A stretch of DNA of 64,000 bases from Guptibacillus hwajinpoensis (GTDB lineage: Bacteria; Bacillota; Bacilli; Bacillales; Guptibacillaceae). Made by a program: the position numbers and the translations under genes. Below are positions 18,364 to 21,515 of the stretch, one piece after another. The DNA lies in NCBI RefSeq assembly GCF_020171785.1, contig NZ_JAIVAE010000002.1, forward strand, positions 496,001 to 560,000, written 5' to 3'. Numbering within the stretch: position 1 is the first letter of the stretch; each line of letters starts with the position of its first letter. The notes under the pieces were generated by a model. It made no database searches. It saw only the letters and a list, made by a program, of their open reading frames with translations, and had not been told where the DNA came from.

Positions 18364-19932
18364 ATGAAGAATTTTGAAGACTTTGCACTATCAAACGAAG
18401 TGAAAAAAGCTGTGCTCGAGCTTGGCTTTAAAGAAGCCACTCCCATCCAGGAAAAAGCTCTTGAACCAATTTTAGAAGGAAGAGATATGATTGGTCAGGC
18501 TCAGACGGGTACAGGGAAAACAGCCGCTTTTGGTATACCTGTGATTGAGAAAGTAAAGAAAATTGGTGGTCCTGAAGCGATCATCTTAACGCCAACACGT
18601 GAGCTTGCGATGCAAGTAGCAATTGAACTGCAGAAGCTTTCAAAATACAAAGGCTTAAATGTTCTCGCAGTATATGGTGGAGAACCAATCTATCATCAAA
18701 TTCGCGCTTTAAAAAGAGGCGTTAACATTGTGGTTGGAACACCGGGCCGCATGCTTGACCATCTGAAGCGTAAGACGCTTCGCACGGATAATATTCATAC
18801 AGCGATTCTTGATGAAGCAGATGAAATGCTTGATATGGGCTTTATTGACGATATTGAATTGATTTTTAAGCAGCTTCCTGTTAAGCGTCAGTCGCTTCTA
18901 TTTTCCGCTACTATTCCTGCACCAATCCGTAAGCTTTCTAGTAAGTATTTGAAAGATCCGATTACCATTTCCGTTTCTAAAGGGGATGTCACCGCTGATA
19001 CAGTGGAGCAAGTGTATTACCGCACGTTCGAAAGTGACAAATTTGATACGCTCTGTCGCGTGATTGAAAGCGAAAATATTCGACTTGGTATTATTTTCAC
19101 TAAGACGAAAAAAGGAGCTGCGCAAGTTACAGAATCATTGAAAAAGCGTGGGTACCGAGCAGAAGAGCTTCATGGTGATCTGACACAGCAACAGCGATCT
19201 AAAGTCATGAATCTCTTTAGACGATCACAAGTGAACTTCCTTGTCGCGACAGATATCGCTGCAAGGGGCATTGATGTGGCACACGTAAGCCACGTTATTA
19301 ACTATGATATCCCTGAGGATCCGGAACGCTATGTCCATCGTATTGGACGCACGGGTCGCGCTGGAAACAAAGGGGTTGCGCTAACGCTTGTAACGCCAAA
19401 GGATATGCGCTTCCTTCAGTCAATTGAATCAAAGATCAAGTTAAACCTTTCAGCTGAGCCTCTCCAAGATGAGACGGTAGATCTTGATAACATCGTTAAA
19501 TCTGTTGAAAAGCAGCTGAAGAAACAGAAAACTGATTCAACGGCTCGAGAAACGGCTGATCTTCTACTTGCAAAATACAACGCTGAAGATCTTGTTCAAG
19601 CTTTCCTTGAAAATGCCATACAAGAGAAGCAAAACACCACGCCTTCTGAATATAACTTCGGTGAAACGGGAGGACAGAACGGAATGGTTCGTTTCTTCTT
19701 GAATGTGGGTCGTAACATTGATCTTCATCCTAAAAAACTGTTAAGTGAGCTTTCAGCTATGGCGGGTGTTGAGACAGAGTCAGTAGGTCGTATTGACATC
19801 TTTGAGAAATTCTCATTCTTTGAAGTGCATGAAGACGTGGCACCGTTCGTCTATGAAGCGCTTCGAGCTGGTGGTGTTGATGGTAAATCAATCCACTTAG
19901 AACCTGCAAAACCACAAAAAAGCAGAGTGTAA
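18364..19932 (+). CDS. DEAD-box RNA helicase with DbpA-type RNA-binding domain
   Basis: A 522-residue ATP-dependent RNA helicase. All core motifs are present: the Q motif ATPIQEKAL, motif I AQTGTGKT, Ia PTRELA, TPGR, II DEAD, III SAT, a HGDLTQQQR region and VI HRIGRTGR. Residues from about 430 on (GMVRFFLNVGRNIDLHPKKL onward) fit the RRM-like DbpA RNA-binding domain, which in DbpA/YxiN targets 23S rRNA. It may act in ribosome assembly or cold adaptation. Its position between cinA and recA, with only 12 nt to cinA, is atypical. Whether it is orthologous to DbpA, CshA or a separate paralogue cannot be settled here. Confidence 0.9.
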   Translation: MKNFEDFALSNEVKKAVLELGFKEATPIQEKALEPILEGRDMIGQAQTGTGKTAAFGIPVIEKVKKIGGPEAIILTPTRELAMQVAIELQKLSKYKGLNVLAVYGGEPIYHQIRALKRGVNIVVGTPGRMLDHLKRKTLRTDNIHTAILDEADEMLDMGFIDDIELIFKQLPVKRQSLLFSATIPAPIRKLSSKYLKDPITISVSKGDVTADTVEQVYYRTFESDKFDTLCRVIESENIRLGIIFTKTKKGAAQVTESLKKRGYRAEELHGDLTQQQRSKVMNLFRRSQVNFLVATDIAARGIDVAHVSHVINYDIPEDPERYVHRIGRTGRAGNKGVALTLVTPKDMRFLQSIESKIKLNLSAEPLQDETVDLDNIVKSVEKQLKKQKTDSTARETADLLLAKYNAEDLVQAFLENAIQEKQNTTPSEYNFGETGGQNGMVRFFLNVGRNIDLHPKKLLSELSAMAGVETESVGRIDIFEKFSFFEVHEDVAPFVYEALRAGGVDGKSIHLEPAKPQKSRV

Positions 19933-20034: not shown

Positions 20035-20048
20035 CGAATAAATGTTCG
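20035..20048 (+). promoter_or_regulatory. LexA (SOS) box of recA
   Basis: CGAATAAATGTTCG matches the Gram-positive SOS operator CGAAC-N4-GTTCG with one change (T for C in the left arm). It lies 8 bp upstream of the -35 of the recA promoter. Confidence 0.8.
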
Positions 20049-20118: not shown

Positions 20119-21515
20119 GTGAGTGATCGTAAAGCTGCCTTAGATATGGCACTTAGACAAATAGAAAAACAATTCGGTAAAGGTTCAATCATGAAACTCG
20201 GCGAACAAGCTGAGCAAAGAGTCTCTACGGTATCCACTGGTTCACTGGCTCTTGATATTGCTCTTGGTGTAGGAGGGTATCCTAGAGGCCGTGTCATCGA
20301 AGTTTACGGCCCGGAATCTTCTGGTAAAACAACCGTTGCTCTTCATGCCATTGCAGAAGTTCAGCGTAATGGTGGTCAGGCCGCATTTATCGATGCTGAG
20401 CACGCACTTGATCCGGTTTATGCAGAAAAGCTTGGTGTTAACATCGATGAGCTATTGCTTTCTCAACCTGACACAGGAGAACAAGCCCTAGAAATTGCTG
20501 AAGCGCTCGTACGAAGTGGAGCAGTTGATATGGTCGTTGTTGACTCCGTTGCTGCCCTTGTACCAAAGGCTGAAATCGAAGGTGAAATGGGAGATGCACA
20601 CGTTGGTTTGCAGGCGCGTTTAATGTCTCAAGCGCTTCGTAAGCTTTCTGGTGCGATTAATAAATCCAAAACAACCGCGGTCTTTATTAACCAGATCCGT
20701 GAAAAAGTTGGGGTTATGTTCGGAAATCAACGATTAGTTGCTTAATCTTTTTCTATAATCAATTTAAAAAGAAAAGATTAAGGAGTTTACTATGGGTTTC
20801 CCTTGCTAGCGATAGCATGTTAAAAAACCTTGTGAACCTTATTGCCTGAGGGTGTGGCATTAATTATGCTGCTAACGGTGAAGCCCCCCAGTTTATGGGT
20901 AATACCGTGCCAAGCCTCTTTAAGAGGAAGGTGTAGAGACTACCGAAAAGAACTCATATAGGAGTTAACTTAGTAGGGTACGGCAGAAGATAGGCTGCTG
21001 CTGGAAGTGCAAGGCTCTCAATTTATTGAGATGAAGAGATAGTCCACACTATAGAAATGGAAAATCTATAGAAAATGCCAGAAACAACTCCAGGCGGACG
21101 TGCGCTGAAATTCTATTCATCTGTTCGATTAGAAGTTCGTCGTGCTGAGACGCTGAAACAGGGTAATGACATGGTCGGTAACAAAACGCGTATTAAAGTT
21201 GTAAAGAACAAGGTGGCTCCGCCGTTTAAACAGGCAGAAGTCGACATCATGTACGGGGAAGGTATTTCCAAGCAGGGTGAGATCCTTGATATTGGTTCTA
21301 ACCTTGAAATCGTTCAGAAGAGCGGCGCATGGTTCTCATTCGAAGGCGAACGCCTTGGACAGGGTCGCGAAAATGCAAAACAATTCTTGAAAGAAAACCC
21401 GGCAATGGAAGCTGAGATTGAAGGGCGTATTCGCGCTCATCATAATCTTGATGCCGATAAGCAAGTGGATGAAGCGGCTGCAGGTAACGAAACGCTTCTT
21501 CCTGACGAAGAATAA
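20119..21515 (+). CDS. recA: RecA recombinase, split by a group I intron (exons 20119-20727 and 21078-21515)
   Basis: The strand-exchange and SOS-activating ATPase. Exon 1 encodes residues 1-203 and exon 2 the rest, to 348 residues, the normal length. GTG 20119 follows GAGGAGGAA. Exon 1 has Walker [10 protein letters not shown] and [11 protein letters not shown], and ends MFGN. Exon 2 resumes with [15 protein letters not shown], so splicing after Asn203 restores the conserved L2 DNA-binding loop MFGN-PETTPGG exactly. Unspliced RNA would add five codons (QRLVA) and stop, giving a 208-residue truncated protein without L2 completion or C-terminal domain. The ATG at 21075 spans the intron end and is not a real start. 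Confidence 0.95.
20728..21077 (+). ncRNA. Group I self-splicing intron in recA, no ORF
   Basis: 350 nt. The exon ends in U (20727) and the intron ends in G (21077), as group I chemistry requires. The internal guide GTTTCC (20796-20801) pairs with exon bases GGAAAT (20722-20727), with the G-U pair at the splice site. P7 is formed by GACTA (20938-20942, in GTGTAGAGACTA) and TAGTC (21040-21044, in AAGAGATAGTCC), the classic R and S elements. P8 is CTCAA/TTGAG (21016-21030) and P9 is CTATAG/CTATAG (21049-21072). An extra hairpin TTAATCTTTT/AAAAGATTAA lies in the P1 loop. No homing-endonuclease ORF fits inside. The subgroup looks IA-like, but this is not proved. Group I introns in Bacillus recA have been described before (B. 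anthracis). Confidence 0.93.

Follow-up and report, generated by a model that had tools for sequence, protein, structure and literature searches.

The recA gene of Guptibacillus hwajinpoensis, as found in the 64,000-nt stretch of DNA analyzed here (the window), is interrupted by an insert of 350 nt (20728-21077) that was located from the open reading frames and the sequence and lies between Asn203 and Pro204; all coordinates refer to the plus strand of the window. Read from the DNA alone such a recA looks truncated, and the locus raises the question of whether it still encodes a complete RecA, what the insert is and where it came from. On comparative sequence evidence, we identify the insert with high confidence as a self-splicing group I intron of the IA type that descends from a homing intron and is itself non-autonomous; the gene is probably intact once its message is spliced. 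The first-pass annotation, made from the sequence alone, had placed a 350-nt intron between these two residues, and its coordinates are right to the base; it had also stated that the class is not new, and a passage in PMC3984707 does place recA group I introns in Bacillus already in print. The class itself being known, the main interest lies in a series of decaying copies and in a link to viruses.

Reading frame, splice sites and core

Exon 1 (20119..20727) comprises 203 codons, from a GTG start to the terminal ...VGVMFGN, and shows 97-100% identity across all 15 genomes of the family; exon 2 (21078..21515, stop included) is an open reading frame that starts with PETTPGG. In the unspliced message an in-frame stop is met five codons into the intron (20743..20745) and the frame ends after 208 residues, which agrees with the earlier reading that RecA would stop at residue 208 without splicing. 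A stop at 5-8 codons into the intron is found in 31 of 31 related introns; according to a passage in PMC3984707, in-frame stops occur in many group I introns, where ribosome stalling could help folding. Regarding exon 2, comparison with two other intron-bearing genomes of the genus yielded dN/dS values of 0.041 (G012, locus L044) and 0.045 (G003, locus L056), with 13:2 and 49:12 synonymous to nonsynonymous changes, respectively. Judged by these ratios, exon 2, downstream of the stop, is under strong purifying selection. With exon 1 as query (E 1e-20 or better), a single recA match per genome was obtained in 15 of 15 family genomes, including the source genome. A cell with the intron in this single recA should rely on splicing. 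Given the selection on exon 2 and the lack of a second recA match, splicing is very probably required, and efficient enough. Anatomy and exon-2 conservation suggest that guanosine-initiated transesterification would remove the intron from the recA mRNA and join Asn203 to Pro204.

The 5' strand of P1 lies in the exon (GGAAAU, 20722..20727), with the U at the splice site, and pairs with the internal guide sequence GUUUCC (20796..20801), the 3' strand of P1, leaving a U-G pair at the splice site. This exon strand with its U-G pair is present in 30 of 31 introns; in the viral copy L077, GGAACU stands in the exon, and the guide is altered to match. The P10 strand UGG (20793..20795) pairs with the CCA that opens exon 2; 3 or more such pairs form in 29 of 31 introns and 2 in L053 and L077, and P10 covaries to AGG/CCU in two bacterial copies (L052 and L058). 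The final intron base is G (21077 in the window) in 30 of 31 introns, and A in L072. The guide pairing and the U and G splice-site identities named in the first-pass annotation are confirmed by these comparisons, P1 being compensated in L077.

The alignment of the core comprised 31 introns (29 distinct). The window row served as template for a structure of 68 pairs in 13 helices, which was then checked on the alignment. Covarying pairs were found in 11 of the 13 helices, P6 and P7 being invariant. Both sides changed in 38 of the 68 pairs, compared with 17.1 +/- 2.1 in shuffles (0/500 as high), a count that kinship among the 31 rows inflates. Paired cells amounted to 95.6%, compared with 87.1% after shuffling and 33-43% with the 3' strands slid; with the window row as template, this percentage is favored by construction, the double changes less so.

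P2 (20802-20808 with 20813-20819) shows both-side changes in 6/7 pairs and P3 (20828-20832 with 21010-21014; 99.3% paired) in 2/5. P4 (20875-20879/20904-20908) and P5 (20884-20886/20897-20899) contain one compensated pair each, P6 (20909-20911/20930-20932) is the first of the invariant helices and P6a (20915-20918/20924-20927) covaries; over P4, P5, P6 and P6a (20875..20932), 96.5-100% of the cells are paired. P7 (20938-20942 with 21040-21044), which we take to be the guanosine-binding helix, is paired in all rows and, being invariant, uninformative as to covariation. Both-side changes affect 5/6 pairs of P8 (21016-21021/21026-21031; 99.4% paired) and 4/7 pairs of P9 (21049-21055/21065-21071; 100% paired). 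P7, P8 and P9, described as visible in the first reading, are thus all present and paired across the 31 introns, and the P3-P9 core is found with P4, P6, P7 and P8 paired, P6 and P7 being neutral by covariation. Helices P7.1 and P7.2 between P7 and P3 are features of IA-type introns; the window intron has both, and both covary, P7.1 (20951-20955/20962-20966; 88.3% paired) in 5/5 pairs and P7.2 (20981-20986/20995-21000; 85.6% paired) in 4/6. Minimum-energy folding alone is unimpressive (z -1.86, 5/100 shuffles as good). Between the 5' strand of P3 and P4 lie two small hairpins (20836-20840/20849-20853 and 20854-20860/20866-20872) with both-side changes in 2/5 and 5/7 pairs, respectively; to our knowledge, they are not among the standard group I maps.

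The Rfam group I model RF00028 matched the window intron over the full model length with 30.4 bits (E 7.1e-6) and, in a search of the whole source genome, again with 30.4 bits (E 1.2e-5), the gathering score being 50; no Rfam family reached its gathering score anywhere in the 64,000-nt window. An RF00028 search had been proposed at first pass as a check, a score below threshold counting against the intron, and formally the result does so. Among six relatives, however, the viral copy L071 scored 51.3 bits and three others 28-37 bits, L056 and L063 not being listed at E 0.01, and three further relatives scored 29-39 bits; with the window included, the cut-off of 50 was reached by 1 of 10 loci of the recA intron lineage. 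RF00028 is therefore judged to score this lineage poorly, and the sub-threshold score was discounted for that reason; the extra hairpins between P3 and P4 may be the cause. In control genomes, matches at E up to 1 occurred in 8 of 14, two of them over the cut-off. Annotators should be warned that RF00028 tends to score recA introns of the L2 lineage below cut-off. (Note that the source genome holds a second group I intron, L080, at G000:C4:60133-60451, which RF00028 scores with 81.4 bits, above gathering. It lies at the 3' end of a flagellin gene (...SSAVLQLLR) and differs from the recA intron in gene and site; flagellin-gene group I introns in Bacillus relatives are mentioned in a passage in PMC3984707.)

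Occurrence and history at the recA site

The same recA site is occupied in 27 Bacillus-related genes (window included) and in four distinct viral contigs. The bacterial copies were sought in named-genome contigs with a pattern consisting of the P7 3' strand, a gap and the PETTPGG codons, which overlooks introns whose P9 is long or whose P7 differs. It yielded 29 matches, among them 26 introns at exactly this recA site and three uninterrupted recA genes (L042, L055 and L066); for L047, where the retrieved stretch lacks exon 1, the intron was taken from L033, a contig of equal length, exon 2 being identical over the 392 bases compared. The named hosts include Neobacillus, Anoxybacillus, Rossellomorea, Priestia, Lederbergia, Fictibacillus, Halobacillus and Pseudalkalibacillus, among others. 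Intron DNA was found in 6 of 299 sampled genomes of the order, three of the six belonging to the genus of the window (11 matches in total, 5 of which were dropped as AT-rich stretches of 27-35 nt), and the endonuclease of genome G003, described below, in 3 of the 299. Weak matches to the endonuclease profile in 299 genomes of the class were G348:C1:350521-350745 (L078, E 5e-7) and G350:C1:2309265-2309546 (L079, E 7e-6).

Regarding viruses, IMG/VR yielded L071 and L072 by the site pattern and L075 and L077 by the endonuclease profile (L075 and L076, identical over the 2.5 kb compared, were counted once). In L071, L072, L075 and L077 a recA homologue is interrupted at the corresponding codons. 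The phage collection gave no match to two endonucleases, nor the plasmid collection to the intron; among the viral contigs, the G003 endonuclease alone had no match and the L071 endonuclease alone recovered only itself. Since the same site is occupied in bacterial recA and in recA homologues of viral contigs, phages are plausible carriers. The literature matches listed include no survey of the L2 recA intron site across bacteria and phages, from which no claim of absence from print is made.

Within the family, recA is uninterrupted at exactly the insertion point in 12 of 15 genomes and carries the intron in 3; within the genus, the intron is present in 3 of 14 genomes, scattered among empty alleles. 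On a tree of the neighboring helicase and on an exon-1 tree the intron-bearing genomes stand among empty ones, well-supported branches forcing three changes, and on the genus trees the intron label is no more clustered than shuffled labels. In the genus, the intron would thus come and go. (Note that the wider exon trees are disturbed by further inserts in some recA genes and that one exon tree included two short exon-1 rows, L061 and L070; the genus trees were weighted more.) The introns of the window and of G012 share an identical deletion scar and agree at 345 of 350 positions, and their neighboring helicase genes agree at 1264 of 1432 bases. Horizontal movement of an allele that had already lost its gene is probable here; measured against the exons, the divergence of the two introns would also fit slow vertical descent and several losses. 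Introns of 984 nt in three Anoxybacillus species are identical except at 1-2 positions, whereas exon 1 of the same recA genes differs by 19-48 synonymous changes in 147 sites, which points to recent spread; in 2 of 3 pairs the density of synonymous changes is clearly lower in exon 2 than in exon 1, which is suggestive only. A co-conversion footprint in the genus was considered and rejected, the identity profile being alike in intron-bearing and intron-less neighbors (14 genomes). GGAAAT precedes the site in 5 of 12 empty alleles as well, so that these codons do not prove that an intron was once there.

The endonuclease gene and its probable decay

The intron of G003 measures 964 nt and contains an ORF of 211 aa, which matched PDB 3r3p ('Mobile intron protein') with E 5.6e-16 over 92 residues; the ORF of the viral copy L071 matched the same entry with E 5.4e-16. 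No Pfam family was found above cut-off for the G003 ORF, the best being DUF559 (20.1 vs 20.6 bits). Five residues (E118, D144, D154, H161 and D170) are invariant in 5 of 5 aligned endonucleases, all from relatives of the window intron, and we take them to be assignable to the letters of the EDxHD motif. PDB 3r3p is presumably the catalytic domain of I-Bth0305I, the endonuclease from the group I intron that Bacillus thuringiensis phage 0305phi8-36 carries in recA. A passage in PMC3943268 uses I-Bth0305I to illustrate the EDxHD family and puts the length of its target at nearly 60 bp. The likeness of the present introns to that system lies in the enzyme of the same-site relatives; the window copy differs in having lost the endonuclease gene. 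Ko and colleagues reportedly described a group I intron in the recA of Bacillus anthracis in 2002, which shares gene and class with the window intron (the 29 site-pattern matches include no B. cereus-group records, and the collection may not include such genomes). In Staphylococcus phage Machias, the window intron core matched 132 nt at 75% under a ribonucleoside-diphosphate reductase subunit alpha; the gene is another one, and the matching stretch would be an intron by similarity.

From this kinship, the full element would consist of the intron with a gene for an EDxHD (Vsr-fold) endonuclease inside the P1 loop. The presumed action of the enzyme is to cleave recA at the L2-loop codons where the intron is absent, whereupon repair of the cut gene would copy the intron in. 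The L2 codons of RecA are highly conserved in bacteria and, for that reason, a good homing target. An open endonuclease gene is present in the P1 loop in 10 of 31 introns, six bacterial (L050, L051, L056, L058, L063 and L069) and four viral. Regarding the 27 bacterial copies, 6 genes are open, 3 are broken (L060 by an internal deletion, L062 and L065 by frameshifts) and 18 copies are without a gene, retaining in-frame tails of 4-38 codons before GFP(C/Y) and a stop. Not all of these tails are recognizable as endonuclease; the longest, the 38-codon tail of L059, resembles the endonuclease end in its later part. For intact bacterial endonucleases dN/dS was 0.10-0.18 (estimable in 6 of 10 pairs), with dS of 1.4-2.0 being near saturation, and pairs with the broken L062 gave 0.14-0.19.

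The window copy (20728..21077), with its covarying core and with the site empty in 12 of 15 family genomes, belongs to those that have lost the gene. No ORF longer than 39 aa lies inside it, and no EDxHD endonuclease is encoded there. It keeps a remnant (20768..20809), 13 codons and a stop that read like the 3' end of the G003 ORF, as if the gene had been deleted down to its last 13 codons. The remnant overlaps the P10 strand, the guide (P1) strand and part of P2; the terminal codons may have outlived the rest because the same bases form these strands. The first-pass label 'ORF-less' therefore holds, but the state looks like secondary loss, since 13 codons remain and relatives hold the gene. 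An extra hairpin in the P1 loop, singled out at the same time, is real: CUUAAUC (20741-20747) pairs with GAUUAAG (20776-20782) in a P1-extension hairpin (20741..20782) that is predicted to form in the window (z -2.69, 4/200 shuffles as good). It is not unusual, however, the 7-bp stem around the endonuclease slot being perfect in 20 of 31 introns, including 6 of the 10 with an open gene; the hairpin is the closing stem of the former slot.

The opposite direction of change, with an endonuclease-less form as the ancestor and the endonuclease gene a later invader, is very unlikely, even though the trees alone do not polarize the change. On the intron tree, where only 6 of 26 inner branches are well supported, open versus lost endonuclease requires 5 changes, 2 of them forced by such branches; as the trees do not tell gain from loss, the direction rests on the endonuclease remnants. 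The deletion in L060, the frameshifts in L062 and L065 and the 38-codon tail of L059 look like decay, and both viral copies found by the site pattern, L071 and L072, carry the gene; L075 and L077 were excluded from this argument because they were found by an endonuclease search. The 31 copies make up a natural series from an open gene over frameshift and deletion to almost nothing, in which a homing cycle of gain, decay and loss is readable in one chromosomal gene.

The most compact copy, L033/L047, measures 307 nt and has a P1 loop reduced to 11 bases. Its unspliced exon 1 frame runs directly into GFPC* and stops only inside P2, so that ribosomes would cover the guide strand.

Retention of the intron and further inserts in recA

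An infecting phage that carries the intron with an open endonuclease gene could cut the host recA at the L2 codons, and a host copy that lacks the endonuclease and still splices would hide the target and be kept as protection. We regard this as unlikely; if true, endonuclease-less recA introns would be a shield against phage-borne or neighbor-borne cutters, beyond mere relics.

Still less probable is retention as a regulator, in which splicing would respond to temperature, Mg2+, GTP or DNA damage and set the amount of RecA. With the endonuclease gone, selfish spread alone leaves the persistence of the intron unexplained, and there are precedents, as a passage in PMC8987985 describes an endonuclease-less RadA intein that answers to single-stranded DNA and, in C. 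difficile, a group I intron that lacks an endonuclease and is stimulated by c-di-GMP. The absence of any Rfam family at gathering score in the window speaks against a regulator, weakly so because the intron itself is missed too; so does the patchy presence (3 of 14 genus genomes, the nearest relatives having empty alleles). In addition, the RecA protein of B. anthracis is called apparently functional despite its intron in a passage in PMC1475869. A box scan of the window found 3 SOS-like boxes compared with 1.72 expected, which is not commoner than chance; one of them, upstream of recA (20035..20048, 14 nt), has one mismatch to CGAACNNNNGTTCG, the consensus that we took for SOS/LexA. A DbpA-type DEAD-box helicase gene (18364-19932) precedes recA in all 15 family genomes and was rejected as a splicing partner, being equally present in the 12 intron-less ones; among the 30 other intron loci, several of which hold little upstream DNA, it was found only at L044 and L056, both of the same genus. 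The first-pass suggestion that splicing could tune the DNA-damage response found nothing in its favor in Rfam, in a partner gene or in the patchy presence.

That a degenerate intron leaves recA effectively broken or yields two polypeptides, with the ATG that the last three intron bases form in frame with exon 2 (21075-21077) as the start of the second, is very improbable: 11 of 31 introns end in ATG and 8 more in GTG or TTG (19/31), endings that are favored anyway by the splice site, which fixes the final G, but 12 of 31 end in non-start triplets, with TAG in L043, L045, L057 and L063, exon 2 is conserved and the core pairs are kept.

The recA genes of the intron set carry inserts at four separate places, the L2 codons among them. 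In L043, L046, L054 and L067 a further insert lies just upstream of the LDP codons of exon 1 and adjoins reverse-transcriptase/HNH-like reading frames; the one of the four that was tested, L067, is a group II intron by Pfam RVT_1 and Rfam RF00029. The recA of Neobacillus rhizophilus (L048:3770-4867, minus strand) has an insert at the Walker A codons (IIEIYG.. / ..PESSGKTT), besides the L2 intron, with an ORF of 366 aa that contains helix-turn-helix units and ends in a Vsr-like stretch scoring below threshold (E 0.0085); a search of the PDB gave nothing at E below 0.1 for it, and Rfam does not recognize an intron there. The recA of Bacillus renqingensis (L045:4003-6273, minus strand) carries, in exon 2, a group II intron that follows ...GGRALKF.
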